Below, piece by piece: positions 204-64,000 of a stretch of DNA of 64,000 bases. Within the stretch, counting starts at the first letter, position 1, and every line of letters begins with the position of its first letter. The stretch lies in IMG/VR virus record IMGVR_UViG_3300027896_000034, positions 1 through 64,000 of that record. One strand, 5' to 3'. The position numbers and the translations under genes are program-made. Under the pieces are notes generated by a model. It was not told where the DNA came from and did not search any database. It was given only the letters and a program-made list of their open reading frames with translations. The DNA comes from a virus.

Positions 204-3128
204 CTAAGTAAAAATTTGGACCAACAAGAAATCTCCTCCACCGCCTCCTCCTGATGTTCCGCTACTACCACTAGTTCCAGATACTCCTGTTCCACTAGAT
301 CCAGAAGAACCGGATGTTCCTGCTGGACCACTAGTTCCTGACGATCCACTAGTTCCTGTTTCTCCAGAAGAACCAGAAGTTCCTCCTGTACCTTTTGCTC
401 CTTGCATAGCCATAACAAGAAGGTCAACCCTATTTACACCAACTATTCCAGTTCCTGCAGATCTTCTAAATCTTCCTTGTACTGTATATGTAGCAGGAGC
501 TAGTGCTGCAGTTCGATGTGTAAATGATAATCCTCCAAAAGTTGGAGTTGCTGCAAGTTCTATTTGACCTTCGTCTGTATCTGATGAATTAACATTTATT
601 GCTACAGCCAGAGTAGTTGTTCCACCACTCACTAATAAACATTCTGCAGTCATAAATACAGCTATTGGTACTGTTTCATCCAATGTTATAGTAGTTACTG
701 CTCCTGTTATATTTTCAAGAGTTCCTGATGTAGTTGTTCTTTGATTAGTCATTTCAACATAACTACTAGGAAGTTCTCCAGCAACAGCACTGGCACCACT
801 ACTTCCACTACTTCCAGAAGAACCACTTGTTACTCCAGTTCCAGAAGTTCCAGAAGTTCCTGTTAATCCACTAGATCCAGATGATCCTGAACTTCCAGAA
901 GTTCCTGTAGCACCACTAGATCCAGAACTACCAGATGTTCCTGTTATACCAGATGATCCTGAACTACCCGATGTTCCTGTTAGACCAGATGATCCTGAAC
1001 TACCACTAGATCCATCTGTTCCACTACTTCCAGATGTTACACTTGTTGCAGAAGTTCCAGAACTACCGCTAGATCCATCAATTCCTGATGATCCACTGCT
1101 TCCGGAACTACCGCTAGATCCTGATGTTCCAGAACTACCGGACGATCCACTAATTCCAGATGAACCACTTGATCCTGAACTTCCGGATGTTCCACCAGTT
1201 CCAGTTGATCCAGACGTTCCACTAATTCCAGAACTACCACTTGATCCAGACGTTCCACTAATTCCAGAACTACCACTTGATCCAGCAGTTCCAGACGATC
1301 CTGAACTACCACTAGTTCCAGATGTACCTCCAGTACCAGTAGAACCTCTTGTTCCTGCTATTCCACTAGATCCTGACGATCCGCTTGTTCCACTGGTTCC
1401 TGCAATTCCAGTTCCATATTTTATATATAAAGAACCATCAGGTAATGCTGTTGTTCCTGATGTTCCTGTAGTTCCATAAGTTAAATTAAATGACGTTCCT
1501 GCTGTTCCGCTACTTCCAGATGAACCGCTAGATCCTGACGTTCCACTAGATCCACTACTACCACTAGTTACTCCAGTTCCAGAAGTTCCAGAAGTTCCAG
1601 GTCCCCCACTAGATCCAGATGTTCCAGAAGAACCACTTGTTCCTCCACTCCCAGAAGTTCCTATTCCACTAGTTCCAGATGAACCACTTGTTCCTGCACT
1701 ACCAGAAATTCCTGTTCCACTAGATCCACTACTTCCACTTGTTACTCCAGTTGCAGATGTTCCAGAAGTTCCATGTGACCCAGTTGTTCCACTACTTCCT
1801 GAACTACCACTAGATCCATCTGTCCCACTACTTCCAGATGTTACACTTGTTGCAGATGTTCCTGATGTTCCACCAGTTCCTGTAGAACCACTACTACCAG
1901 AAGATCCAGATGTTCCGTGTGACCCAGTTGTACCAGAAGTTCCACTACTACCAGAAGATCCACTTGTTACTCCAGTTGCAGATGTTCCTGATGTTCCCCC
2001 ACTTCCCGAAGTACCTATCCCACTAGTTCCACTACTACCGCTTGTTACTCCAGTTGCAGATGTTCCTGATGTTCCCGTTGATCCGCTAGATCCACTACTT
2101 CCAGAAGAACCACTAGATCCATCTGTCCCACTACTTCCACTTGTTACTCCAGTTGCAGATGTTCCTGATGTTCCCGTTGATCCACTGGATCCGCTACTTC
2201 CAGAAGTTCCATGTGACCCAGTTGTTCCACTACTACCAGAAGATCCAGATGTTACTCCAGTTCCAGAAGTTCCTGCTGTCCCACTACTACCAGAAGATCC
2301 AGATGTTCCATGTGACCCAGTTGTTCCAGATGTTCCGCTACTACCACTAGTTACTCCAGTTCCAGAAGTTCCAGAAGTTCCCCAACCACTTGTTCCAGAA
2401 GATCCAGATGTTCCGTGTGACCCAGTTGTACCGGAAGTTCCACTAGTTACTCCAGTTCCAGAAGTTCCTGCTGTTCCACTACTACCGGAAGAACCACTAC
2501 TACCTGATGTTTCAGAAGTTCCACTACTTCCACTAGTTACTCCAGTTCCAGAAGTTCCTGCTGTTCCACTACTTCCTGAAGACCCTGAAGACCCTGAAGT
2601 TCCATGTGACCCAGTTGTTCCACTACTACCAGAAGATCCAGATGTTACTCCAGTTCCAGAAGTTCCAGAAGTTCCCCAACCACTTGTTCCAGAAGATCCA
2701 GATGTTCCGTGTGACCCAGTTGTTCCAGATGTTCCACTAGTTACTCCAGTAGCAGAAGTTCCACTAGACCCAGATGTTCCTATTCCACTAGTACCAGATG
2801 TTCCAGAAGTTCCTGACCCACCAGTTCCTCCAGTTCCAGCAACAGCAGTTAAAACTCCTTCGCTATCAATAGTTAAACCATCACCAACTTTGATTCCACC
2901 AAGACCAGATGAAGATGCTATATTAAGTTCTAGTTCTCCATTAGTACTATCAAAATGTAAACCTTCTCCAATATTAAGTGATAAACTTCCAGTACTGTCA
3001 TATGTTAATCCTTCTCCAACATTAATTTCAGTTGATAAAACTCCAGTACTATCAATTATTAATCCTTGTCCAATTTTAACGGGAACAGCTAGATTATTTT
3101 TTGTTCCAATTAATTTTGTATCACTCAT
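204..3128 (-). CDS. Collagen-like tail fibre / virion surface protein
   Basis: A 974-residue protein. Residues 1-96 hold four copies of a short motif of the type VGxGLxxDSTGxL, which is common at the start of phage fibre proteins. Most of the rest is an uninterrupted Gly-X-Y series in which X and Y are almost always Ser or Thr (GTSGSSG), a triple-helix pattern nearly free of proline. The series is broken near residues 543-566 and by a globular segment at about 779-911. A short G-S-T tail and a run of six Gly lead to the C-terminal DFLLVQIFT. The neighbouring spike gene supports a tail or fibre role. The repeat is prone to copy-number change. Confidence 0.85.
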   Translation of the reverse strand: MSDTKLIGTKNNLAVPVKIGQGLIIDSTGVLSTEINVGEGLTYDSTGSLSLNIGEGLHFDSTNGELELNIASSSGLGGIKVGDGLTIDSEGVLTAVAGTGGTGGSGTSGTSGTSGIGTSGSSGTSATGVTSGTSGTTGSHGTSGSSGTSGWGTSGTSGTGVTSGSSGSSGTTGSHGTSGSSGSSGSSGTAGTSGTGVTSGSSGTSETSGSSGSSGSSGTAGTSGTGVTSGTSGTTGSHGTSGSSGTSGWGTSGTSGTGVTSGSSGTSGTTGSHGTSGSSGSSGTAGTSGTGVTSGSSGSSGTTGSHGTSGSSGSSGSTGTSGTSATGVTSGSSGTDGSSGSSGSSGSSGSTGTSGTSATGVTSGSSGTSGIGTSGSGGTSGTSATGVTSGSSGSSGTSGTTGSHGTSGSSGSSGSTGTGGTSGTSATSVTSGSSGTDGSSGSSGSSGTTGSHGTSGTSATGVTSGSSGSSGTGISGSAGTSGSSGTSGIGTSGSGGTSGSSGTSGSSGGPGTSGTSGTGVTSGSSGSSGTSGSSGSSGSSGTAGTSFNLTYGTTGTSGTTALPDGSLYIKYGTGIAGTSGTSGSSGSSGIAGTRGSTGTGGTSGTSGSSGSSGTAGSSGSSGISGTSGSSGSSGISGTSGSTGTGGTSGSSGSSGSSGISGSSGSSGTSGSSGSSGSSGSSGIDGSSGSSGTSATSVTSGSSGTDGSSGSSGSSGLTGTSGSSGSSGITGTSGSSGSSGATGTSGSSGSSGSSGLTGTSGTSGTGVTSGSSGSSGSSGASAVAGELPSSYVEMTNQRTTTSGTLENITGAVTTITLDETVPIAVFMTAECLLVSGGTTTLAVAINVNSSDTDEGQIELAATPTFGGLSFTHRTAALAPATYTVQGRFRRSAGTGIVGVNRVDLLVMAMQGAKGTGGTSGSSGETGTSGSSGTSGPAGTSGSSGSSGTGVSGTSGSSGTSGGGGGGDFLLVQIFT

Positions 3129-54759: not shown

Positions 54760-54848
54760 TGGCGGAAGGTAAAGGGATCAAACCTTTGCACCTTTTACAG
54801 TGGCCACGGTTTAGCAAACCGGCACAGTTATCGCTCTGTCAACCTTCC
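54760..54848 (-). tRNA. tRNA-Ser (GCU), copy 1
   Basis: Acceptor GGAAGGT/ACCTTCC, anticodon loop TTGCTAA (GCT), long variable arm, T-arm AAAGGTTTGATCCCTTT and encoded CCA. This canonical copy begins the main array; a second Ser-GCU lies at 55555-55637. Confidence 0.88.
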
Positions 54849-54857
54849 ATTTTATTC

Positions 54858-54969
54858 ATTCAACTATTTCTACGAATCCCGATTCTCCACGTAGAATTCA
54901 ACCCTTGGTGGTTCCGCTAAAGTTGTGTTTTGTTTTTATTGATCGTCTACTTAAACTAAATAGTTGAAT
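54858..54969. ncRNA. 112-nt structured element closed by 12-bp stem
   Basis: ATTCAACTATTT (54858-54869) pairs perfectly with AAATAGTTGAAT (54958-54969). Inside are CTACG/CGTAG (54870-54874 and 54890-54894) and other short pairs such as AACC/GGTT near 54900. It sits between tRNA-Ser and a protein gene stop. It is not a tRNA. It may be a small RNA; the transcribed strand is unknown, minus is more likely from context. Confidence 0.4.
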
Positions 54970-54970
54970 A

Positions 54971-55222
54971 TTATAAACTTTTTTTAATTTCTTTAACTTT
55001 TTTCTTAACCATTTCTGTATGTTCTTTTTTAAACACCATTGGTTTAATAACTGGTGTATTTACTTTTTTTAAGTGAATCATGATATCTGGAGAATAATTA
55101 TATCCTTCCATTGATCGGATTGCATATTCTTTTTCCCCATACCAAAATTCTATTCTTGCATTTTCTCTATCTTCCTCTTTTACTTCTTTAGACAGAGTAT
55201 CTATTAATTCTTTTACGTTCAT
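54971..55222 (-). CDS. Small conserved phage-type protein
   Basis: An 83-residue protein. MNVKELIDTLSKEVKEEDRE, ARIEFWYGEKEYAIRSMEGY and SPDIMIHL form a pattern seen in small phage proteins (helix then strand pair). The basic C-terminal helix KKVKEIKKSL may bind nucleic acid. Function unknown. Confidence 0.6.
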   Translation of the reverse strand: MNVKELIDTLSKEVKEEDRENARIEFWYGEKEYAIRSMEGYNYSPDIMIHLKKVNTPVIKPMVFKKEHTEMVKKKVKEIKKSL

Positions 55223-55380
55223 AAATTCCTCTTTAAATAATCAAAAGTTTTTACTGAAATTATAATTAACACCGATATTATTAGTGCCCTCCAAAAAGGT
55301 TCACATTGAGTTATCATATAACCTGCTACCATTGCAGATATTGGGCAACATATCATTGCTAAAGTTTTTTTAATTTTCAT
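55219..55380 (-). CDS. Small membrane protein (53 aa)
   Basis: A 53-residue gene overlapping the next by ATGA. Two hydrophobic segments (TLAMICCPISAMVAGYMI and RALIISVLIIISV). Function unknown. Confidence 0.6.
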   Translation of the reverse strand: MKIKKTLAMICCPISAMVAGYMITQCEPFWRALIISVLIIISVKTFDYLKRNL

Positions 55381-55399
55381 TTTTTATCCTTTTTTATTG

Positions 55400-55463
55400 G
55401 GATCTTGGTTGGATTTGAACCAACTGGGTAGCCACCCCCTAGTCCTAAAGACCACAAGATCCA
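55400..55463 (-). pseudogene. tRNA-like remnant lacking a D-arm (Leu-type)
   Basis: An 8-bp acceptor GGATCTTG/CAAGATCC and a T-arm GTTGG-TTCAAAT-CCAAC are clear. Between them are only two small hairpins: TGGT-CTTTAGG-ACTA and GGGT-GGCT-ACCC. The first reads best as an anticodon arm (anticodon TTA or, shifted, TAG as in Leu tRNAs) and the second as the long variable arm of a Leu tRNA, leaving no D-arm. No CCA. Most likely a decayed tRNA-Leu; identity uncertain. Confidence 0.45.
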
Positions 55464-55473
55464 TGATTATATT

Positions 55474-55548
55474 TGGCGAGAGTGCTAGGATTTGAACCCA
55501 GAGTCCTGGTTCTGGAGACCAGAGGTTTTCCAATTAACCGACACTCCC
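55474..55548 (-). tRNA. tRNA-Trp (CCA)
   Basis: Acceptor GGGAGTG/CACTCTC, anticodon stem CTGGT/ACCAG with loop CTCCAGA (CCA), T-loop TTCAAAT and encoded CCA end. Confidence 0.9.
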
Positions 55549-55554
55549 GAATTG

Positions 55555-55637
55555 CGGAGTCGATAGGACTCGAACCTACAATGGTGTTACCCACGCATGT
55601 TTAGCAAACATGTTTCTTACCATTAGAATACGCCTCC
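55555..55637 (-). tRNA. tRNA-Ser (GCU), copy 2, overlapped by homing endonuclease
   Basis: Acceptor GGAGGCG/CGACTCC with one mismatch, anticodon stem CATGT/ACATG with loop TTGCTAA (GCT), variable arm, T-loop TTCGAGT. No CCA. The GIY-YIG gene at 55601-56305 reads through its 5' half and takes its stop codon from the anticodon loop. Confidence 0.8.
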
Positions 55638-56305
55638 GGACTAAATACTCTTCCTCTTTTCCACCCTTGTAATTCCCAATTTTGAAACTCCTCTTTTTTA
55701 ATAGTTTTACAGATATTATCCTTATAAATCCAACAATTTCCAAATTGAGAATTATTGACGCCAAAATGGTTAAGTTTGTTAGATTTTCTTATTTTATTTT
55801 TTGAATCTTCTGAATGGTTTTTACCTAAAAATCCCATAACAGGACTTTTTCTTTTTAATAATATTCCGTCTTTTATTCTGTCACTGTGCTTCTTTTTAAA
55901 CTCTTCATTATTTTTCATTAAATATTTAAATTGTATCACAGCTCTCTTAAGTTTTTTAATTGCTTCTTCGTTTTTATTATCGTGATTTATATTTTCTAAA
56001 TGATTTTTATTTATATATGAAAATCCACCTTTTCCGCCAGTTAATAAATTATATGTTTTCCCGGTATTTTTTAAAAGAAATTGGTCTGTTAATATCTCTT
56101 TTTCTTTATTTTTCATATCTTCTTCATCTTTACAAATGAAAAGAACTTCTTTATTAAATTTTTCTTTTCCATATTTTTTTATAGCTGCTTGAAGATATTT
56201 ACCAGAACCAAGATAATCATCATTTAAATTTTTGGTTTTGTGAAAACCTATATAAAACTTCCCAGTTTCTATATTTGTGGTTTTATATATAATAAAATAA
56301 TACAT
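55601..56305 (-). CDS. GIY-YIG homing endonuclease ending inside tRNA-Ser
   Basis: A 234-residue protein. YFIIYKTTNIETGKFYIGFH is the GIY-YIG pair, YLGSGKYLQAAIKKYGKEKF the catalytic helix, and TYNLLTGGKGG the Glu/Asn-region. Tail NCWIYKDNICKTIKKEEF and GWKRGRVF is a common DNA-binding tail. The last 13 residues (PEAYSNGKKHVC) are encoded by the tRNA-Ser gene and the TAA stop lies in its anticodon loop. Confidence 0.85.
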   Translation of the reverse strand: MYYFIIYKTTNIETGKFYIGFHKTKNLNDDYLGSGKYLQAAIKKYGKEKFNKEVLFICKDEEDMKNKEKEILTDQFLLKNTGKTYNLLTGGKGGFSYINKNHLENINHDNKNEEAIKKLKRAVIQFKYLMKNNEEFKKKHSDRIKDGILLKRKSPVMGFLGKNHSEDSKNKIRKSNKLNHFGVNNSQFGNCWIYKDNICKTIKKEEFQNWELQGWKRGRVFSPEAYSNGKKHVC

Positions 56306-56324
56306 GTTAAATCCTCCTATATAT

Positions 56325-56332
56325 TTGTTCTA
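56325..56332 (-). promoter_or_regulatory. TAGAACAA motif before GIY-YIG gene
   Basis: Minus strand: CCTATATAGAACAAATATAT then AGGAGG, about 20 bases ahead of the start at 56305. It is almost the same leader as that of the HNH gene (59467-59474), which suggests shared expression control of the two homing nucleases. Confidence 0.4.
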
Positions 56333-56351
56333 TATAGGAGGTGATATCGTG

Positions 56352-56441
56352 CGGAAGGTAGAGGACTTGAACCCCCATAACGACTCACATCGTATACACT
56401 CGATCTCAAGTCGAGTCTCTTACCAATTAGAGTAACCTTCC
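56352..56441 (-). tRNA. tRNA-Ser (UGA)
   Basis: Acceptor GGAAGGT/ACCTTCC, anticodon stem CTCGA/TCGAG with loop CTTGAGA (TGA), long variable arm, T-loop TTCAAGT; no CCA encoded. Confidence 0.88.
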
Positions 56442-56458
56442 AGATTTATTATATAATT

Positions 56459-56534
56459 TGGTAGTCGTGAGAAGAATTGAACTTCTGACATATCGCTTAT
56501 CAAGCGATTGCTCTACCAACTGAGCTACACGACT
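56459..56534 (-). tRNA. tRNA-Ile (GAU)
   Basis: Acceptor AGTCGTG/CACGACT, D-arm AGCTCAGTTGGTAGAGC, anticodon loop TTGATAA (GAT), T-loop TTCAATT, encoded CCA. Confidence 0.9.
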
Positions 56535-56540
56535 ATAATT

Positions 56541-56617
56541 TGGTGCTGGTGAAAGGACTTGAACCTTTAAAATTTAGAGTTTGAATCTAACATGTGTGCC
56601 AATTTCATCACACCAGC
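56541..56617 (-). tRNA. tRNA-Leu (CAA), short variable region
   Basis: Acceptor GCTGGTG/CACCAGC, Leu-type D-arm, anticodon stem TTAGA/TCTAA with loop TTCAAAC (CAA), T-loop TTCAAGT and encoded CCA. The variable region is about 5 bases, whereas bacterial Leu tRNAs normally have a long arm, so charging is uncertain. Confidence 0.78.
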
Positions 56618-56627
56618 TCTTTTAAAT

Positions 56628-56703
56628 TGGTAGTCCTGGAGTGATTTGAACACTCGACCAAAGCCTTATAAGGACTCTGCTCTACCAACTGAGCTACAGG
56701 ACA
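56628..56703 (-). tRNA. tRNA-Ile (UAU)
   Basis: D-arm AGCTCAGTTGGTAGAGC, anticodon loop CTTATAA (TAT) on a stem with two G-U pairs, T-loop TTCAAAT, encoded CCA; 1-72 is a T-T mismatch. It reads AUA directly without needing a lysidine-modified CAU tRNA, useful because AUA is frequent in these AT-rich genes. Confidence 0.82.
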
Positions 56704-56708
56704 ATATT

Positions 56709-56789
56709 TGGTGCGAGAGGAGAGATTCGAACTCTCACCCGAAGACTAGGTTCTAAGCCTAGCACGTCTACCAATTCCATCACTCTCGC
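56709..56789 (-). tRNA. tRNA-Leu (UAG)
   Basis: Acceptor GCGAGAG/CTCTCGC, anticodon stem CTAGG/CCTAG with loop CTTAGAA (TAG), medium variable arm, T-loop TTCGAAT, encoded CCA. Confidence 0.9.
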
Positions 56790-56793
56790 TTTT

Positions 56794-56882
56794 TGGTGGG
56801 AGCGGAGAGGGTCGAACTCTCAATCCCTTGTGGGCATGTGATCTTAAGCCACATGTGTATGCCAAGATTCCACCACGCTCCC
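56794..56882 (-). tRNA. tRNA-Leu (UAA)
   Basis: Acceptor GGGAGCG/CGCTCCC, anticodon loop CTTAAGA (TAA), long variable arm, T-loop TTCGACC, encoded CCA. Two overlapping ORFs here are shadows. Confidence 0.9.
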
Positions 56883-56896
56883 ATATAAAAATAAAT

Positions 56897-56972
56897 TGGG
56901 TGAATAGAGGGACTCGAACCCTCAAACTGGGAGCCACAATCCCAGGTCTTATCCATTTTGACGATATCCACC
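56897..56972 (-). tRNA. tRNA-His (GUG)
   Basis: Acceptor GGTGGAT/ATTCACC, anticodon loop TTGTGGC (GTG), T-arm GAGGG-TTCGAGT-CCCTC, encoded CCA. A G at the -1 position pairs with C73 as expected for histidine tRNA. Confidence 0.87.
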
Positions 56973-56986
56973 ATTAAATTCATCTT

Positions 56987-57502
56987 TTATTCCTTTTTAT
57001 ATAACCAACACGTTTCATTTAATAAAATAGTAGCAGTTGGAAGAAGTTCATCAACACATTTTTTTACATCTGGATAATATTCAACATAATCATGCCCTGC
57101 TAATATTCCCCCCTTTTTAACTTTTGGAAGCCAATTAATTATATCATTTTTAACGCACTCATAATCATGATTAGTGTCTATAAAAACAAAATCTAAACTT
57201 TCATCATCATATAGTTTTGAAGCTACATCACTATCTTTTTTAATTAGGTTTACAATATCTTTTACTGACTTGAGTGTTTCTAAACACATTTCATAATCAC
57301 CATCACCCCTCCAATGATCTACAAGATCTAATTTTATTTTCTTTTCACTATTAGCAATACAAACAGCTATAAATGCAGCACTTCTCCCTTTAAAAACTCC
57401 AACTTCTACAAAATGATCCCCATCTTTTGCTTTATTCACCATATCTTGATATAATCCTTCAAAAGTGAAATATCCTTCTATATTCTCATAAAAATGCTCC
57501 AT
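56987..57502 (-). CDS. Class I SAM methyltransferase (family 24 type)
   Basis: A 171-residue protein. HFVEVGVFKGRSAAFIA is the SAM loop, KLDLVDHWRGDG the following strand, FVFIDTNHDYECVKNDI the acidic motif and GGILAGHDYVEYYPDV the metal-type loop. The family methylates sugars and antibiotics. It sits next to a glycosyltransferase, in the tRNA array, and may methylate a glycan. Confidence 0.82.
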   Translation of the reverse strand: MEHFYENIEGYFTFEGLYQDMVNKAKDGDHFVEVGVFKGRSAAFIAVCIANSEKKIKLDLVDHWRGDGDYEMCLETLKSVKDIVNLIKKDSDVASKLYDDESLDFVFIDTNHDYECVKNDIINWLPKVKKGGILAGHDYVEYYPDVKKCVDELLPTATILLNETCWLYKKE

Positions 57503-57516
57503 AAAAATACTCCCTT

Positions 57517-58389
57517 TTATTTCTCCATTTCAAATTTAGTTTTCATCATTGTATTAAGCATGAATAATGTTCTTGCTGAATAAGAATGATTTAGAGCCCA
57601 TTTCTGTCCATATTCAGCAGAAATTTCAGCTTTTGTTAAAGCTTCATCATATACTTTTTGCATCTTACTAAGATCTGATCTTTCAAAATAAGATATAAAT
57701 TTATCTATTCCCTCCAGCATCGGTGACGAATGATCTACTGTTCTATCAGCCATCACAGGGATACCTGATGCTATAATCTCTATATTTCTACAATTAAAAT
57801 CTCCACCAAGAGAAACATTTAAACCCACACGAGTCTTTCTTAATTCTGGTACATATTGATCATGAGGAAGATTTTCAGATAATTTAACTATACAATTTGG
57901 TAATAATGATTTCATTTTTGCCAATATCTTTATTCTACTATCACCAAAAACATGATATGGGATAGAAGCTTGAAATACATCATACTCTCTTATTTTATTA
58001 GGAGGTCCCCATTCATCTATAGATATGATATGATTTGTGCAACATGGCATATGATATATATCTTTTCCTGGTAACTCCCTTTTAAAATCATTTATATAAT
58101 GACTATGAGCTATAAAAATATATGGAAGTAGTCTTGCTAATTTCATCTCTTCTTCAAATAATACATGACTATCTAAAAACCAAACTCCAACAGGGCACTT
58201 ATATTTAGTTATTCCAAGATTAATTACTCTAGATGAAGCAGAACCAAAACAAGTAATTAAAACTGCATCAAAATCCTCATCTGGTAACTCTTTTACCGCC
58301 CAAGGTGCATTTACATTAATAAGATTTATTTCAGATGGAATATACTTCAATTCATTACCATGATCAGGTCCAACCATTAGAACCCTCAT
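57517..58389 (-). CDS. CgeB/DUF3880-like glycosyltransferase
   Basis: Start ATG at 58387-58389 has GGAGG 8 bases upstream; the longer frame to 58404 only adds residues encoded by that site. About 290 residues. Segments GVWFLDSHVLFEEE, RVGLNVSLGGDFNCRNIEII and SYFERSDLSKMQKVYD match the CgeB-type GT-B family. Glycosyl acceptor unknown. Confidence 0.72.
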   Translation of the reverse strand: MRVLMVGPDHGNELKYIPSEINLINVNAPWAVKELPDEDFDAVLITCFGSASSRVINLGITKYKCPVGVWFLDSHVLFEEEMKLARLLPYIFIAHSHYINDFKRELPGKDIYHMPCCTNHIISIDEWGPPNKIREYDVFQASIPYHVFGDSRIKILAKMKSLLPNCIVKLSENLPHDQYVPELRKTRVGLNVSLGGDFNCRNIEIIASGIPVMADRTVDHSSPMLEGIDKFISYFERSDLSKMQKVYDEALTKAEISAEYGQKWALNHSYSARTLFMLNTMMKTKFEMEK

Positions 58390-58415
58390 TAAACTAACCT
58401 CCAATTGTTAATTAT

Positions 58416-58491
58416 TGGTGAGACTAGAGAGATTCGAACTCTCGACTTACTGGTTAAAAGCCAGCTACTCTACCAACTGAGTTATAGTCCC
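58416..58491 (-). tRNA. tRNA-Lys (UUU)
   Basis: Acceptor GGGACTA/TAGTCTC, D-arm AACTCAGTTGGTAGAGT, anticodon loop CTTTTAA (TTT), T-loop TTCGAAT, encoded CCA. Its 5' end encodes the last residues of the preceding small gene. Confidence 0.9.
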
Positions 58492-58659
58492 AATTATAAA
58501 TTTTCCATTTTTAAAAGTTCCACGATCAGTTTTTCCATTAAGTTCTCGAATCATTATATTAGAATTATTTTCATCCAACCAATATAATGGAACATTCTTT
58601 TTTCTTCTTATTTTAATACCTGGTTTTAAAAGAAAATTTAAATTCCAATTTTTGTTCAT
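58465..58659 (-). CDS. Small protein ending in tRNA-Lys (64 aa)
   Basis: Start at ATG 58657-58659 with GGAGAG upstream is preferred; the longer frame reads into a tRNA. Product MNKNWNLNFLLKPGIKIRRK then LNGKTDRGTFKNGKFII. The last residues GTITQLVE are encoded by the tRNA-Lys gene, and the TAG stop is in its D-arm. Function unknown. Confidence 0.6.
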   Translation of the reverse strand: MNKNWNLNFLLKPGIKIRRKKNVPLYWLDENNSNIMIRELNGKTDRGTFKNGKFIIGTITQLVE

Positions 58660-58680
58660 TTTTTCTCTCCATTTATTTAT

Positions 58681-58758
58681 TGGAACGTCTGAAGGGACTC
58701 GAACCCTCATGTATCTTGGTTCGTAGCCAAGCGCCTATCCAAGTTAGACTACAGACGC
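58681..58758 (-). tRNA. tRNA-Arg (ACG)
   Basis: Acceptor GCGTCTG/CAGACGT, anticodon stem CTTGG/CCAAG with loop CTACGAA (ACG), T-loop TTCGAGT, encoded CCA. The A34 would need host TadA to become inosine. Confidence 0.9.
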
Positions 58759-58764
58759 ATTTAT

Positions 58765-59451
58765 TTATAACTTGTTAGATTTTGCTAATTTACTATAATG
58801 GTTATTGTAATATTCATTATAATAATCATACCTCTTTCCTTTTCCTTTATTAGCACCTTTATATGTTTTTGTTAAAGAGTGACAGTTTGGACACAAAAGA
58901 TCAACATTATTTGGATTATTGTTTTCTGGGTTTCCATCTATGTGCTCTAATTCTAAAGGAATTGTTTTAGAAAATGGATTAATTTCTCCCCATCCGCATT
59001 TGGAACATTTGTTATTATATTTTTTTAATAAATATTTTTTTACATAACTGGCGTGTCCAAAAGTTTTGCACCCACCACTTATTTTTCCTTCCAACCAATC
59101 TTTAATTAAATTGTTTAATGTAAATTCTGCTTTACAAGTGTTGTTGCAAAACATTCTTAATACAGGTTTTCCACAATTTAAACATGGTTTCATAGTTGGT
59201 ATAGTTCCGATTCCACCTAATGAAATGCTAATTTTTCTTCTAGTCTCAGTTGATTGTTTTCTTCCAGGACTATTCACTTTACCTGCACAAGTTGGACAAC
59301 AAAATTTATTTTTAGGTTTTATATTGTTAAAACATTCAGGATTTAAACATTTTTTAAATTGATTACATGGTATTTTTCTTCTTAAGTGTTGAATCAGAGC
59401 TGAAGGTTTTTTAAAATCAACTCCACACTTTTCACATATTATCATAATCAT
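58765..59451 (-). CDS. HNH homing endonuclease
   Basis: A 228-residue protein. Several zinc knuckles (CEKCGVDF, CLNPEC, CCPTC, CLNCGK) and a NUMOD-like GRKQSTETRRKISISLGG precede the HNH core CSKCGW ... LELEHIDGNPENNNPNNVDL and LCPNCHSLTKTYKG. It is a free-standing intron-less nuclease in the tRNA array, flanked by tRNA-Arg genes on both sides. Confidence 0.9.
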   Translation of the reverse strand: MIMIICEKCGVDFKKPSALIQHLRRKIPCNQFKKCLNPECFNNIKPKNKFCCPTCAGKVNSPGRKQSTETRRKISISLGGIGTIPTMKPCLNCGKPVLRMFCNNTCKAEFTLNNLIKDWLEGKISGGCKTFGHASYVKKYLLKKYNNKCSKCGWGEINPFSKTIPLELEHIDGNPENNNPNNVDLLCPNCHSLTKTYKGANKGKGKRYDYYNEYYNNHYSKLAKSNKL

Positions 59452-59466
59452 TCCTCCTTTTTATAT

Positions 59467-59474
59467 TTGTTCTA
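59467..59474 (-). promoter_or_regulatory. TAGAACAA motif before HNH gene
   Basis: Minus strand: TCCTTAGAACAAATATAAAA then AGGAGG, about 20 bases before the start at 59451. Same leader type as the GIY-YIG gene at 56325. Confidence 0.4.
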
Positions 59475-59509
59475 AGGAATGATTCGAACTAGTAAGTAAT
59501 TGAATACGT

Positions 59510-59585
59510 TGGAACGCCAGATGGGGCTCGAACCCATATAGGACAGATTAGAAGTCTGTTGCAGATCCAATTTTGCTACTGGCGT
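59510..59585 (-). tRNA. tRNA-Arg (UCU)
   Basis: Acceptor ACGCCAG/CTGGCGT, anticodon stem CAGA/TCTG with loop CTTCTAA (TCT), T-loop TTCGAGC, encoded CCA. It reads AGA, the main Arg codon in this AT-rich genome. Confidence 0.9.
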
Positions 59586-59606
59586 TTAATTATTAAATAA
59601 TCATTG

Positions 59607-59679
59607 AGTAGACGGCTGGTTGAACCACCAATTCACGTAAGCTGAAATTACTATTCGCTATAACCGCTCCACCGTCTAC
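59607..59679 (-). tRNA. Aberrant tRNA-like gene, apparent anticodon UCA
   Basis: Acceptor GTAGACG/CGTCTAC is perfect and the length is about 73. The centre hairpin GTAA-TTTCAGC-TTAC puts TCA at the anticodon position, which would read UGA. But the D-arm cannot be paired well, the T-arm has a 6-base loop (TTGGT-GGTTCA-ACCAG) and no CCA is encoded. It may be a degenerate or a very unusual tRNA. Confidence 0.4.
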
Positions 59680-59795
59680 CTTTTGATTCCTCTGGTTAAA
59701 TTATAATATTGAATTAAAGATTTTTTCATTAATTTGTAATAAATTAATCCAGAAGTACCAGAAATAATACAAATAATAATTACAAATGTTAACAT
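59676..59795 (-). CDS. Very small membrane protein (39 aa)
   Basis: Start MLTFVIIICIISGTSGLIYY is a hydrophobic helix, followed by a basic tail KKSLIQYYNLTRGIKR. An AAAGGAG site lies upstream. The TAG stop is taken from the 5' end of the tRNA-like gene at 59607-59679. Confidence 0.5.
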   Translation of the reverse strand: MLTFVIIICIISGTSGLIYYKLMKKSLIQYYNLTRGIKR

Positions 59796-59817
59796 TAATA
59801 TTCTCCTTTGGTTTTAG

Positions 59818-59893
59818 TGGAGCCGATAGTAGGAATTGAACCCACAACAAGATGATTACAGATCACCTGCTCTACCTATTGAGCTATACCGGC
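59818..59893 (-). tRNA. tRNA-Thr (UGU), likely
   Basis: Acceptor GCCGGTA/TATCGGC, D-arm AGCTCAATAGGTAGAGC, anticodon stem GGTGA/TCATC with loop TCTGTAA (TGT), T-loop TTCAATT, encoded CCA. Position 33 is C instead of T. A reading as Tyr is less likely because a Tyr tRNA exists elsewhere in the array. Confidence 0.65.
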
Positions 59894-59895
59894 AT

Positions 59896-59976
59896 TGGAG
59901 CGGAAGACGGGGTTCGAACCCGCAAGCCGAAGCACTAGTTTGGAAGACTAGCCACTTACCATTAGTGTACTCCCGC
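59896..59976 (-). tRNA. tRNA-Gly (UCC)
   Basis: Acceptor GCGGGAG/CTTCCGC, anticodon stem CTAGT/ACTAG with loop CTTCCAA (TCC), T-loop TTCGAAC, encoded CCA. Confidence 0.88.
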
Positions 59977-59981
59977 ATTAC

Positions 59982-60323
59982 TTATTTTAATGAAGAATCC
60001 ATTGATTCAATCAATCGAATAGTATCTATTGAATGTTCTACATCATGAAGATTTTTAAAAATATCATTTTTTATATGATTAAAGACATGTTGTCTTCTTT
60101 CTCCTGTTATAACTTTTACTTTTTCTTTCCCATCAATTCCTCCGCAAAAAGGACCACCATAACTATCTTGATAGTCAAAATATGTATAATCTACTTTGAC
60201 GAATCCTGTTTTTGCAATTACCAGAACAATATCATCATATTTCACTCTTCTTTTTATACCAATAATCATTCCTGGTTTGATTTTTGATGCTTCAATAAAA
60301 TCATCACTATTCTTTTTTTTCAT
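59982..60323 (-). CDS. Unknown protein
   Basis: A 113-residue protein. Basic N-terminus, then KPGMIIGIKRRVKYDDIVLV (an SH3-like strand pattern) and a helical C-terminus rich in His/Asp. It overlaps the next gene by 4 bases. No family recognised. Confidence 0.55.
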   Translation of the reverse strand: MKKKNSDDFIEASKIKPGMIIGIKRRVKYDDIVLVIAKTGFVKVDYTYFDYQDSYGGPFCGGIDGKEKVKVITGERRQHVFNHIKNDIFKNLHDVEHSIDTIRLIESMDSSLK

Positions 60324-60487
60324 TTCTTTCTCCTACTTTTCTTATCTGGAATAAATGATTTATGGGTTCTACAAAATTCCTTAAAATCTTCATCACACAT
60401 AGGTGGTAATCCAGCACATTTTCTTGTGTTAAGATGAAGAGCAATAGTATTAATTCCATATTGAATTTTTTTCTTTTTTAACTTCAT
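60320..60487 (-). CDS. Small basic protein (55 aa)
   Basis: Start MKLKKKKIQYGINTIALHLN, with two or three Cys (CAGLPPMC, FC) and a basic end KKSRRKK. It overlaps the Pth2 gene and the unknown gene by 4 bases each. Function unknown. Confidence 0.55.
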   Translation of the reverse strand: MKLKKKKIQYGINTIALHLNTRKCAGLPPMCDEDFKEFCRTHKSFIPDKKSRRKK

Positions 60488-60891
60488 AATAATTTTAAAT
60501 CTCCAGTTATTCCATCAATTTTATCTTCATAATCTGGTCCGATTGCGCAACAAGTTTTAGTTGGAACTCCATTAAACTCTGTTAAACCAGCGTCTTCAAT
60601 TAAAGAACAAAGAATATTTTTTTCAAGAGCGTCTCCATAAACTCTCATTAGTTCATCTTCGCTATTTACATAAACTACAACTTTTGTAAATAATCCACTC
60701 AACCATAAATCTAATGGAGATCCTTTTTCTGTATACAATTCTTTTGAAATATCATCTTCACCATTCCATATATCTACCATCTGGTCTAAAATAACTTTCA
60801 TACTTGCGTGAGATCCTTGAGCAATCATTTTCCCTTTTCGCATATTTAGATCTTTTCTTATTACGATAACTTGTTTAATTTTTTTATCCAT
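60484..60891 (-). CDS. pth2: Peptidyl-tRNA hydrolase, Pth2 family
   Basis: Start ATG at 60889-60891 (MDKKIKQ) is preferred over a TTG at 60906. About 135 residues. KQVIVIRKDLNMRKGKMIAQ and GSHASMK are the hallmark of Pth2, and EDAGLTEFNGVPTKTCCAIG the second block. It recycles peptidyl-tRNA that drops off ribosomes. Its place inside a tRNA array suggests a role in keeping phage tRNAs in use. Confidence 0.87.
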   Translation of the reverse strand: MDKKIKQVIVIRKDLNMRKGKMIAQGSHASMKVILDQMVDIWNGEDDISKELYTEKGSPLDLWLSGLFTKVVVYVNSEDELMRVYGDALEKNILCSLIEDAGLTEFNGVPTKTCCAIGPDYEDKIDGITGDLKLL

Positions 60892-61171
60892 CCCATTCCC
60901 ACTCAAATACTATTTCTTTAATAACTCTAATTGTAGCTTTGGTTGAAGAATCAATAGGTTTTTTTCTTTTTATTATTTTTTTAATTATAAGTTGTAGTGA
61001 ATCCCAAAATATAGTAATCATAAACCAGAAACAAAGAACAGGAAGAACTACTACCCAAAAGATAGAACATAATATAACAATTATATTAAAAATGTTAACA
61101 TCATATTTAACTTTACAAAAAGCTGCATATATTACAATTACTATTATACCAAAAAACCATAAACCACCCAT
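60884..61171 (-). CDS. Small membrane protein
   Basis: A 95-residue protein with two strong hydrophobic helices (WFFGIIVIVIYAAF and IIVILCSIFWVVVLPVLCFW) and a basic then acidic tail. It overlaps Pth2 by a few bases. Function unknown. Confidence 0.6.
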   Translation of the reverse strand: MGGLWFFGIIVIVIYAAFCKVKYDVNIFNIIVILCSIFWVVVLPVLCFWFMITIFWDSLQLIIKKIIKRKKPIDSSTKATIRVIKEIVFEWEWDG

Positions 61172-61172
61172 A

Positions 61173-61358
61173 TTACAATTCTCCTTTTACCTTTTTAATT
61201 TTAATAATAATTCCTTCTATTTTTAAAGATACATCTTTAACTTTATATTTATTTTTATCTTGATCAATTAGTGTAATGTTTTCTGAACCAACTTCTTTGT
61301 GTCCATCAATTTCATTAAAAAACACTTTAATGAAATCGTCAACTGTATTTATTTTCAT
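61173..61358 (-). CDS. Small unknown protein (61 aa)
   Basis: A 61-residue alpha/beta protein (start MKINTVDDFIKVFFNEIDGH). It ends 1 base from the next gene. No family. Confidence 0.5.
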   Translation of the reverse strand: MKINTVDDFIKVFFNEIDGHKEVGSENITLIDQDKNKYKVKDVSLKIEGIIIKIKKVKGEL

Positions 61359-61399
61359 TATTTTCTCCTATTTTTATTTTTAGTTATTTTAAATATTTT

Positions 61400-61545
61400 T
61401 GGAACACGTGGTAGGAATTCGATATCCCACAAGGATGCGCTATCTAGCCTTATTCCGCACCACCACCGGTTTGCTAGCCACCAGATCCCGTTATTTGCCC
61501 ACCTCCGGACTACGTTCCCGGAGGATTTGCTTTGGTTACACGTAT
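61400..61545 (-). ncRNA. 146-nt tRNA-like structured RNA with internal insertion
   Basis: The ends look like a tRNA: 5' ATACGTG pairs with 3' CACGTGT and is followed by T-CCA, and a T-arm-like GTGGG/CCTAC precedes it with loop core TATCGAA. The 146-base length is double that of a tRNA and the interior holds a 7-bp CCTCCGG/CCGGAGG hairpin, CTGGT/ACCGG, and TGCG/CGCA. G+C is far above the surroundings. It may be a tRNA with an inserted structured RNA or a novel tRNA-like RNA. ORFs crossing it are shadows. Confidence 0.45.
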
Positions 61546-61558
61546 TCACTTTTTATTT

Positions 61559-61636
61559 TGGAGATGACAGCTGGATTCGGACCAGCGATAGAATGCTTTG
61601 CAGGCATCCGCCTTAACCGGACTTGGCTATGTCATC
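61559..61636 (-). tRNA. tRNA-Cys (GCA)
   Basis: Acceptor GATGACA/TGTCATC, anticodon stem GATGC/GCATT with loop CTGCAAA (GCA), T-arm GCTGG-TCCGAAT-CCAGC, encoded CCA. Confidence 0.87.
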
Positions 61637-61649
61637 CCTTTAGTATTAT

Positions 61650-61994
61650 TTACTGGTGTGTTTCTACATAAGAATGATACCAATCAAAATTATCATAATC
61701 CTCACACTCTTTTGGATCCTCAACTTTTTTACCATATTCAAAAACCATTTTTTTAGCTACGTCTCTTTTAAATTTAAAATTTTTATCATCTGGATATTTA
61801 GATAGAAAATCATTATACATAGATAATTTATCGTTCCATCTAAAAAATTCTCTATCATTATGTTCAATACAAAAATATTTACTCATTTCTTTATAACTAA
61901 TTATTTTTTTATCTTTAACATGAAGATCAAAAAGAAATCCATAAGTTATTACAATCATAAGAAAACTAAGAAAAAATATTTTAATGTAACTCAT
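61650..61994 (-). CDS. Membrane-anchored unknown protein
   Basis: A 114-residue protein with N-terminal helix (IKIFFLSFLMIVITYGFLF) as signal anchor, then a charged domain with two Cys (YFCIEH, KECEDY). Probably periplasmic; function unknown. Confidence 0.55.
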   Translation of the reverse strand: MSYIKIFFLSFLMIVITYGFLFDLHVKDKKIISYKEMSKYFCIEHNDREFFRWNDKLSMYNDFLSKYPDDKNFKFKRDVAKKMVFEYGKKVEDPKECEDYDNFDWYHSYVETHQ

Positions 61995-62016
61995 AATTTA
62001 CTCCTTATATTTAAAT

Positions 62017-62107
62017 TGGTGGGTAGTGATGGGTTCGAACCACCGTGGAGTTAAACTCCGTCTGATCTACAGTCAGATGCCATTGTCCTATTCTCGACCA
62101 ACTACCC
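62017..62107 (-). tRNA. tRNA-Tyr (GUA)
   Basis: Acceptor GGGTAGT/ACTACCC, anticodon stem TCTGA/TCAGA with loop CTGTAGA (GTA), variable arm GGAG-TTTAA-CTCC, T-loop TTCGAAC, encoded CCA. Confidence 0.92.
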
Positions 62108-62110
62108 ATT

Positions 62111-62186
62111 TGGTGATCTCGCAGAGGTTCGAACTCTGGTCATGTGAGTGAAAGTCACATTGCCTAACCAATTAGCAGACGAGATC
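62111..62186 (-). tRNA. tRNA-Glu (UUC)
   Basis: Acceptor GATCTCG/CGAGATC, anticodon stem TGTGA/TCACA with loop CTTTCAC (TTC), T-arm CAGAG-TTCGAAC-CTCTG, encoded CCA. Confidence 0.92.
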
Positions 62187-62191
62187 ATTTA

Positions 62192-62467
62192 TTATTTACT
62201 TCTTGCAAAAAATAAACTCGGTTTTGCGTTTTTAGTATTTCTTGAATCTAAAGAATTAGATCTTACTGTATTCAAAGATTCTACTTCTACTTGTAAAATA
62301 TTTTTTATAGATTTTATTCTTGTTTCTTGAAGAGAATTAGAAACACTATGATATTCCTCGTCGATTATTTTTTCGACATAAATCCCTTCATCTTCTAAAG
62401 CTTTAACAATTATTTTTGCAACTGTTGTTTTACCCTCTCCTAAATGTCCTGTTATAAGTATTCTCAT
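62192..62467 (-). CDS. Small P-loop NTPase
   Basis: A 91-residue protein. MRILITGHLGEGKTTVAKII is a Walker A strand-loop-helix resembling a small kinase such as an adenylylsulphate or nucleotide kinase. It lacks a clear Walker B and lid, so it is either truncated or a minimal binding protein. Located between tRNA-Glu and tRNA-Asp. Confidence 0.65.
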   Translation of the reverse strand: MRILITGHLGEGKTTVAKIIVKALEDEGIYVEKIIDEEYHSVSNSLQETRIKSIKNILQVEVESLNTVRSNSLDSRNTKNAKPSLFFARSK

Positions 62468-62485
62468 ATTTCAATCCTTTCGTGC

Positions 62486-62561
62486 GATGATGGCGGGATT
62501 CGAACCCGCGAATAACCAGATCGACAATCTGGCGCCTTAGACCAAACTGGGCTACATCACC
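62486..62561 (-). tRNA. tRNA-Asp (GUC)
   Basis: Acceptor GGTGATG/CATCATC, anticodon stem CCAGA/TCTGG with loop TTGTCGA (GTC), T-loop TTCGAAT; CCA is not encoded. First tRNA of the array in the direction of transcription. Confidence 0.9.
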
Positions 62562-62576
62562 ATTATTAATCATATC

Positions 62577-62602
62577 AAAAAAAAATCCTTTCATGATTTT
62601 TT
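62577..62602 (-). terminator. Terminator after the structured RNA
   Basis: On the minus strand AAAAAATC, loop ATGAAAG, GATTTTTT plus further T. It lies about 12 bases beyond the 3' end of the 106-nt structured element and before tRNA-Asp, so it would end a transcript containing that element. Confidence 0.65.
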
Positions 62603-62614
62603 AGTATAACGTCG

Positions 62615-62720
62615 CCCCAGTTTAAGGTTACTCTCTAGAGTTACATGTGACGAAAAAAGAAAGGAAACGTCACATGCGTCCTCTCGGTGAGGGGGAAAAT
62701 GATTTCACCTTAAACTGGGG
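62615..62720 (-). ncRNA. 106-nt structured RNA closed by a perfect 14-bp stem (candidate Y RNA)
   Basis: CCCCAGTTTAAGGT (62615-62628) pairs perfectly with 62707-62720. Inside are CATGTGACG/CGTCACATG (62644-62652 and 62668-62676) with a 15-base loop that on the minus strand is all pyrimidine, and CCTC/GAGG (62680-62683 and 62689-62692). A terminator follows on the minus strand. It is not a tRNA. Nearness to a Ro60-like gene and joined 5'/3' ends suggest a Y-type RNA. Confidence 0.55.
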
Positions 62721-62733
62721 GTTATTAATTAAA

Positions 62734-63033
62734 TTATTTCATGCTATCTAGAAGAGCATCCTTTTCTGCTTGAAGAGCAGCTCTTCTTTCTTCACGACCC
62801 ATTGTAGCTCTCAGCATCGAGTCTATTTTTTTCAGTTTCGCCAATTTTTCAGCTTTTGATAAAGACTTAATTTCAGCTTCTACTTCATTTAATTTTTCAT
62901 CAACCCAGTCAGGAATATCCAACTGAAGTTCTGCGTAGTTGGTTGCAACTAATTTGATCTCTGCCCTTACACCAACCATCGTTTCAATATCATTGTTTTT
63001 AACTTTAAAATTTTTTAATCCTTCGATATTCAT
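62734..63033 (-). CDS. Unknown coiled-coil protein
   Basis: A 99-residue protein: a short strand-rich N-terminus (KNNDIETMVGVRAEIKLVAT), then a helical region ending REERRAALQAEKDALLDSMK. It lies between the Ro60-like gene and the structured RNA. No family recognised. Confidence 0.6.
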   Translation of the reverse strand: MNIEGLKNFKVKNNDIETMVGVRAEIKLVATNYAELQLDIPDWVDEKLNEVEAEIKSLSKAEKLAKLKKIDSMLRATMGREERRAALQAEKDALLDSMK

Positions 63034-63150
63034 AAGTAAAATAGTTCTCCCTTATTAAATAAATTTAATTTAAGTTATAGTTATAAGGTGAATCCTATTT
63101 ATGTTTTGTTTATTCTCTAATTATAAATGCGAATAAATAAATTTTTAATC

Positions 63151-64000
63151 TTATTTTCTTTTTTCAAATATTTTGTCAAATGTTAACAATGGAAAGTTCA
63201 TGATTTCGTCCATTAAACTATAGCGACTAGTTTTCATAGTTGCAACTAAATTAGGTAAAGCATAGTAATCTGTTTTCTCCATATTAAAAAATTCTACTGG
63301 AATATTTGCTTTTTTACAATACTGAGATAAATAATCACTATCTCCATGTACATGATATAAATAAACAGTAGGTTCAATATCTAATTTTTTACAATAATTT
63401 TTATATGCATCATGAAAAAGAGGAGATGTATTATCTCCACCATCAGAAACTAAAGCAATACCATTTATAATTATATTTTTATCTTGTAAATATTTTAATC
63501 CACATCCACAAGATGTTCCTCCCCAAGCTTGAATGTGTTTTGCTTCTTTTTCTATTTCTTCAAGTTTCTTCCCAGTTACATCAAATACTCTTGGTTCAGT
63601 ATTAAAGAAAATTAAATAAACTTTTCCTGCTACTGATTTAGTAATATATGATGCAATTTCTTTAGCAAGTTTAACAGCTGACTGCATAGACCCAGAACAA
63701 TCACCAAGGATCAACCAGTCACCTTCTATGGTCTTTTGAGAAATTTTAGCTTCTTGAAGTTTTGAAAGTTTTTCAATTATATCCTTATTAATATCTGGAT
63801 CATTTTCTTCTAAAGATTTCATAGCTTTACTTGCTTTTAAAGTCGAAACTTTTTTATCTTTTGTTGCTCTAGTGAGAGCTTTATCATATTCACTTTTTAA
63901 CATTTTGGATCTAAATACACCAATAGATTCCAAAAATTTTGTACTATTTATAAGTTGTTGCCCTGACATTCCATTTATAAGTGCAAGAATAAATTCTGGA
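63151..64000 (-). CDS. TROVE/VWA (Ro60-like) protein, partial
   Basis: The frame is open to the window edge, so the N-terminus is missing; the ATG at 63969 is probably internal because the reading before it (PEFILALINGM) continues the fold. LINSTKFLESIGVFRSKM resembles TROVE helices, then WLILGDCSGSMQS is the MIDAS loop D-x-S-x-S of the VWA domain, WGGTSCGCGLKYL and ALVSDGGDNTSP its other loops. Ro60 proteins bind misfolded RNA and Y RNAs. A plain VWA protein is the alternative. Confidence 0.6.
   Translation of the reverse strand, partial: PEFILALINGMSGQQLINSTKFLESIGVFRSKMLKSEYDKALTRATKDKKVSTLKASKAMKSLEENDPDINKDIIEKLSKLQEAKISQKTIEGDWLILGDCSGSMQSAVKLAKEIASYITKSVAGKVYLIFFNTEPRVFDVTGKKLEEIEKEAKHIQAWGGTSCGCGLKYLQDKNIIINGIALVSDGGDNTSPLFHDAYKNYCKKLDIEPTVYLYHVHGDSDYLSQYCKKANIPVEFFNMEKTDYYALPNLVATMKTSRYSLMDEIMNFPLLTFDKIFEKRK

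Follow-up and report, generated by a model that had tools for sequence, protein, structure and literature searches.

The 67,255-bp virus record IMGVR_UViG_3300027896_000034, whose positions 1-64,000 form the window (the whole 64,000-nucleotide (nt) stretch that was analysed), very probably carries a Ro60/Y-like RNA system of a phage, linked to a tRNA array. The Ro60 protein binds RNA, has the shape of a ring and has long been studied as a human autoantigen; to our knowledge its Y RNAs are still without a unified function. By computation we found a Ro60 fold, a conserved RNA module with interchangeable inserts (cargoes), resemblance of cargoes to tRNA and ribosomal RNA (rRNA) at this locus or those of its relatives, and linkage to tRNA arrays. 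The initial annotation had proposed a phage Ro60/Y-RNA module, which was right in kind given the Ro60 fold and the Y-like RNAs with tRNA mimicry, but it had probably named the wrong RNA, a 106-nt element on the downstream side of the gene. The five Y-like RNAs lie upstream of the gene on the same strand, at contig 64728-65402, outside the window.

The gene had been described as TROVE/VWA-like and as running off the window, and reading of the full contig indeed gave a complete open reading frame (ORF) encoding 515 amino acids (aa) (Table 1). A model of the protein made by AlphaFold from the single sequence was poor, with a predicted local distance difference test (pLDDT) score of 47, and an AlphaFold2 model from eleven sequences reached 79.9. 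With the latter, the best 13 Foldseek matches in the PDB were all Ro60/TROVE structures (E 8e-10 to 9e-7), and the human, frog, Deinococcus and phage Ro60 structures were matched over their full length, including the HEAT-repeat ring and the VWA fold. Moreover, a two-sequence profile matched the TROVE chains 9l5y/9kop (E 0.0044), and the residues of a metal-ion-dependent adhesion site (MIDAS)-type motif (DxSxS...T...D), namely D333, S335, S337, T395 and D419, were invariant across the 11 sequences. Library profiles matching the protein or its homologues were only of the VWA type or PHROG_850 'RNA-binding protein', the latter (E 3.5e-5) covering the VWA part of the 515-aa protein. Since the Pfam TROVE profile fails on this protein, its Ro60/TROVE membership rests on fold; the TROVE part of the earlier description was borne out by structure comparison but not by the TROVE profile, and we regard the Pfam criterion as marking what a profile can detect, not what defines the protein biologically. 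Judged by its modelled fold, the protein is a highly divergent Ro60 for which RNA binding is predicted.

Automatic peptide patterns found no Ro60 homologues in viral contigs, and a hand-made DNA pattern on conserved peptides of the VWA domain retrieved 12 viral contigs with homologues of 38-49% identity. Further homologues were found in the 595-kb phage LR756511, two cyanobacterial plasmids and three contigs of metagenome-assembled genomes. In most of these relatives the Ro60 gene likewise lies in or beside large tRNA arrays.

Y-like RNAs and their conserved module

In the 1.3 kb upstream of the Ro60 gene (contig 64700-65969) we read several RNAs whose ends are joined and which have 3' strands of one type, ...CUUAACUAGCC; vertebrate Y RNAs have ...CACUUGACUAGCC on the corresponding strand. 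Five such elements, which precede the gene by 30 to 704 nt on the same strand (Table 1), look built for being held by Ro60, a binding that is predicted. Their shared architecture was written as a descriptor with joined ends, in which an outer stem strand (P1), 2-9 nt, an inner stem strand (P2), the motif UACANNN and the cargo are followed by P2', a loop with ACU(U/A) and P1'. The loci are numbered below, L001 being that of this phage (L001 5309-5382 equals contig 65309-65382), L002 that of LR756511, and L025 and L026 those of the cyanobacterial plasmids.

The strict descriptor, run over both strands of the entire 67-kb genome, gave three matches, all about 700 nt or less upstream of the gene, and none scoring at least 30 in 40 simulated genomes. 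At the same score, 23 matches were obtained in 150.7 kb of relative loci versus none in 100 kb of unrelated DNA. A relaxed form gave five matches in this phage genome and, among 17 non-redundant Ro60 loci, 48 sense matches in 14 loci versus 2 antisense matches; three loci had no module, and in one of these, L017, the sequence ends shortly upstream of the gene. Ten viral-contig stretches without a Ro60 homologue, which had been retrieved with a DNA pattern for the hairpin-capped LR756511 element, were reused as negative controls. The modules comprised 37 different P1 and 40 different P2 sequences, occurred in AT-rich and GC-rich loci alike and numbered up to six different ones per locus. Since the descriptor was made from L001 and L002, and its relaxed form drew on L028, a partly independent test comes from the remaining loci alone. 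The strand bias together with the varied P1 and P2 sequences strongly indicates that the RNA structure is under selection. It is scarcely credible that the matches are AT-rich intergenic repeats which look alike without any RNA function: such an explanation gains from the choice of the descriptor after inspection, but the excess of sense matches, the empty simulated genomes and the indifference to base composition all argue against it.

LR756511 also has inside-out versions of the module, in which a GAAA-type loop closes P1 and the open end lies within tRNA bodies (Table 1). One of these inside-out modules belongs to the leader of the Ro60 gene, a position that would be consistent with self-regulation.

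Cargoes and possible roles

Two of the five cargoes of this phage, in elements 4 and 5, contain a tRNA-like domain in normal tRNA order, with Rfam tRNA matches at contig 65188-65244 (E 2e-4) and contig 65309-65382 (E 1e-8), respectively. The anticodon loop of the latter reads CUUUGAAA. Compared with E. coli rRNA, the cargoes of this phage showed no similarity beyond that of shuffled sequences.

The cargoes of the relatives include both normal-order and circularly permuted tRNAs, again with Rfam tRNA matches inside modules. In four loci the permuted tRNA has a complete anticodon arm and a sealed acceptor stem, which is capped by UUCG in L024 and L028, by GCAA in LR756511 and by 7 nt in L020, and in L015, L018 and L025 it is without an anticodon arm, as in YrlA. 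At L015 2862-3002 and L018 8631-8769, ACCA stands in the loop joining the acceptor strands, as if derived from a real tRNA gene. In addition, the two cyanobacterial plasmids have in common a Y-like module (L025 10155-10370 and L026 2362-2590, 81% identical), whose cargo joins a string resembling the 23S sarcin-ricin loop, AGTACGAGAGGA, to a copy of the GTPase-associated centre. The latter copy spans 50 nt with 74% and 84% identity to E. coli 23S 1054-1103 and scores 50 and 60 versus shuffle maxima of 33 and 31. An element of LR756511 shares 17 of the 18 bases of 23S 1919-1936, a weak match (score 31 versus a shuffle maximum of 29). Another 23S-like string, GGGATAAC at L025 6759-6909, did not score above shuffles and was set aside.

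On balance, and with moderate assurance, we favour a Ro60/Y-RNA system that displays mimics of translation RNAs as decoys or tethers. The Ro60 ring protein, encoded together with a small helical-looking protein, would dock on a two-part terminal stem consisting of P1, an asymmetric internal loop with ACU(U/A) on its 3' side and P2, followed by UACANNN. The docked RNAs would then present variable cargoes, many of which imitate RNAs of the translation machinery, that is, tRNAs, permuted tRNAs (in relatives) and, in the plasmids, pieces of 23S rRNA. We infer that these RNAs are expressed and held by Ro60; the mimics most likely either draw off nucleases or factors acting on tRNA and rRNA during infection, or bring enzymes acting on tRNA and rRNA to Ro60. 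As drawn, cargoes with a sealed acceptor end cannot be aminoacylated but still have their anticodon arms, a combination that fits decoys for enzymes of the anticodon loop, and the rRNA-mimicking cargo fits decoys for GTPase-centre factors or nucleases. That decoying is the main role of the Y-like RNAs is nevertheless a tentative suggestion, with somewhat less than an even chance of being right, and it is doubtful whether Ro60 serves phages and phage-like plasmids as a scaffold for multiplexed RNA decoy display, with a standard docking stem and interchangeable cargoes that would imitate what translation-attacking nucleases target, such as various tRNAs with sealed acceptor ends and the 23S GTPase centre joined to the sarcin-ricin loop.

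The main rival is a classical Y-RNA tether, in which the tRNA-like cargo would recruit an exoribonuclease such as PNPase to Ro60, as in RYPER, for the decay or surveillance of structured RNA, here the quality control of phage tRNAs, with no decoy function. YrlA and Rsr have been described as acting in tethering (PMC8394870), the module shares the YrlA design and the Ro60 gene lies within large tRNA arrays, all of which fit this model. We consider it unlikely, as descriptions of YrlA give it no arms but the D, T and acceptor-like ones, whereas many cargoes here keep a full anticodon arm, other cargoes mimic the rRNA GTPase centre, and up to six different modules per locus exceed the need of one tether.

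It is quite improbable that the upstream elements represent tRNA genes with unusual precursors, whose flanking stems would aid excision to working tRNAs (the permuted ones maturing as in red algae) and for which Ro60 would be incidental or a tRNA chaperone. Some cargoes do score as complete tRNAs, and the ACCA in the acceptor loops of the L015 and L018 cargoes would suit this reading, but UUCG or GCAA tetraloops seal several of the acceptor ends, many modules contain no tRNA at all, and the terminal-stem module is conserved whatever the cargo.

Several observations count against the display of translation-RNA mimics by a Ro60/Y-RNA system. The Pfam TROVE profile PF05731 matched neither the 515-aa protein nor any of ten aligned homologues, and the Rfam Y-RNA models matched no element of this phage. 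The descriptor was drawn up by eye on two loci, L001 and L002, and L028 had already been seen when its relaxed form was set. Three of the five cargoes of this phage are plain hairpins with no recognisable target. Lastly, the PNPase-tethering role reported for cellular Ro60 and Y RNA needs no decoy (PMC8394870).

One docking module with many natural cargoes in a single genome provides a ready comparative set for asking what the cargoes are for. If they are decoys, they would represent a new kind of phage counter-defence, and if they are tethers, they would show how exchanging Y RNAs directs a ring nuclease complex to new targets.

The 106-nt element and neighbouring features

The 106-nt element, which the initial annotation took for the Y RNA, was found to start about 430 nt past the stop of the Ro60 gene, and its fold was as described. 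CCCCAGTTTAAGGT (62615-62628) pairs with ACCTTAAACTGGGG (62707-62720) in a perfect 14-bp stem that joins the ends, and on the minus strand CAUGUGACG and CGUCACAUG form a 9-bp hairpin with a 15-nt loop of U and C only. The predicted fold has -51.9 kcal/mol versus a shuffle mean of -27.4 (z = -7.2, none of 200 shuffles as good), and the element folded alone gave z = -8.4. It begins about 14 nt past the stop of a 99-aa ORF, which had been missed. After the element come an AU-rich hairpin with a U-run and then the tRNA array; the array and the hairpin agree with the terminator and array announced earlier, but the hairpin is weak as a terminator.

A homologue search in related phages, suggested as a check on the Y-RNA assignment, found no counterpart of the 106-nt element in 15 relative loci (L002 and L013-L026), and inspection of the stretch after the small ORF in L028 also revealed none. 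At the equivalent place, just after the small ORF, L021, L022, L023 and L024 have a terminator-like hairpin. Searched against Rfam, the element gave chance matches only and no family. Its 14-bp helix is uninterrupted, with no internal loop, P2 or UACANNN, and the descriptor does not find it. Similarity to E. coli rRNA was not beyond that of shuffles, and a 9-base match to the core of the sarcin-ricin loop (CGAGAGGAC) was treated as chance. The joined ends, the very stable fold and the closeness to the Ro60 gene, as well as the Y array of L020 on the same downstream side of its Ro60 gene, would all suit a Y RNA. Against these stand the lack of homologues in the 15 loci and of an Rfam match, the missing module, the terminator-like hairpin in its place in L021-L024 and the five better candidates upstream of the gene, and we regard it as most improbable that this element is itself the Y RNA of this Ro60. 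It is probably a separate structured RNA in the 3' untranslated region (UTR) of the operon in this phage, serving transcript end-formation or stability, and its binding by Ro60 as well is possible.

An 85-nt element on the minus strand at contig 65803-65887 (L001 5803-5887), upstream of the Y array, resembles the 106-nt element, with a perfect 13-bp closing stem (GGUCUUAUGUAGA) and a fold z of -6.5.

The 99-aa ORF between the Ro60 gene and the 106-nt element has counterparts of about 100 aa 3' of the Ro60 gene in L020, L021, L022, L023, L024 and L028 (23-27% identity), and its product had no convincing match in Pfam. It is likely a partner gene in a Ro60 operon.

The tRNA array holds further features, all on the minus strand of the window. 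A structured RNA of about 150 nt (61399-61549), the ends of which pair as AUACGUG/CACGUGU, terminates in UCCA and has a T-arm-like hairpin; it was not called by ARAGORN and is possibly a tRNA with a large insert. The array also contains a peptidyl-tRNA hydrolase gene, PTH2 (60484-60906, Pfam E 2e-31), an inserted HNH endonuclease gene (58765-59451) and an ORF that looks GIY-YIG-like by eye (55601-56305) and runs into tRNA-Ser 55554-55637. Elsewhere, 204-3128 (minus strand) encodes a protein of 974 aa that has collagen-like repeats and is probably a tail fibre.

Table 1 Positions of the Ro60 gene, its neighbours and the Y-like elements (contig or window numbering), and of the inside-out modules of LR756511 (L002 numbering)
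Feature	Position	Strand	Description
tRNA array, 19 tRNA genes	54760-62561	minus	adjoins Ro60 module, same strand; Rfam search
106-nt structured RNA	62615-62720	minus	14-bp closing stem, four inner hairpins, 3' UTR position
Conserved 99-aa ORF	62734-63033	minus	directly 3' of Ro60 gene
Divergent Ro60 (TROVE/VWA) gene, by fold	window 63151-64000; contig 63151-64698	minus	515 aa, extends past window end
Y-like element 1	contig 64728-64789	minus	62 nt; short cargo; score 31.0, fold z -4.0
Y-like element 2	contig 64890-65009	minus	hairpin cargo; score 31.8, fold z -2.0
Y-like element 3	contig 65016-65134	minus	hairpin cargo; score 31.2, fold z -6.0
Y-like element 4	contig 65144-65271	minus	tRNA-like D, anticodon and T arms; score 37.7, fold z -5.7
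Y-like element 5	contig 65284-65402	minus	complete tRNA-like domain, 8-nt anticodon loop; score 31.5, fold z -2.6
Inside-out modules	L002 1829-1880, 2030-2081, 2289-2340, 3768-3905, 5944-5983		example host tRNA 1804-1930

Comparison with known systems

At the protein level, the Ro60 of Thermus phage phiLo (PDB 9l5y) and Rsr of D. radiodurans (PDB 2nvo) match the modelled fold over its full length, with 14-15% identity in structural alignment, and unlike them the phage protein is not recognised by Pfam TROVE.

At the RNA level, the closest known design is YrlA (RF02553), the partner of Rsr. Its consensus has the same layout as our module, with AAACUUG between P2' and P1', a string shared by LR756511 and the plasmids (L025 2991-3121 is an instance). 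An element of a Kovacikia plasmid matches the Rfam YrlA model over the full length (E 9e-6 in a 181-nt search, 4e-4 in 8 kb), its 32.7 bits being below the curated cut-off of 69. As in YrlA, the ends are joined, an internal loop whose 3' side has AAACUUG interrupts the Ro60-side stem, the RNA adjoins the Ro60 gene, and a circularly permuted tRNA-like domain is found, here in the relatives of this phage only. Unlike YrlA, a single phage has five elements, none of them above Rfam thresholds, and the cargoes are in-order tRNAs, hairpins and, in relatives, rRNA mimics, with full anticodon arms among them. The tRNA-like domain of YrlA superimposes on tRNA through circular permutation (PMC11472068), and Hughes et al. 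suggested that it might competitively inhibit an anticodon nuclease (PMC7790460), an idea similar to the decoy role considered here. Cellular Ro60/Y RNA is described as a PNPase tether (PMC8394870).

With respect to gene context, the relevant passage on archaeal tRNA gene clusters places a TROVE gene inside the tRNA array in 20 of 29 cases (PMC6333295). The phage locus likewise has a TROVE gene amid tRNAs, but the hosts differ and that passage describes no Y RNAs; a Ro60/Y-like RNA system such as the present one would help explain these published archaeal arrangements. ROT/TROVE proteins of jumbo phages are noted, in the passage concerned, as an RNA-repair platform with a tRNA-like partner (PMC7824862), and unlike our locus that passage gives no RNA array, cargo or module. 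Decoy display, if true, would instead act as a counter-defence shield for translation by mimicry rather than by RNA repair.
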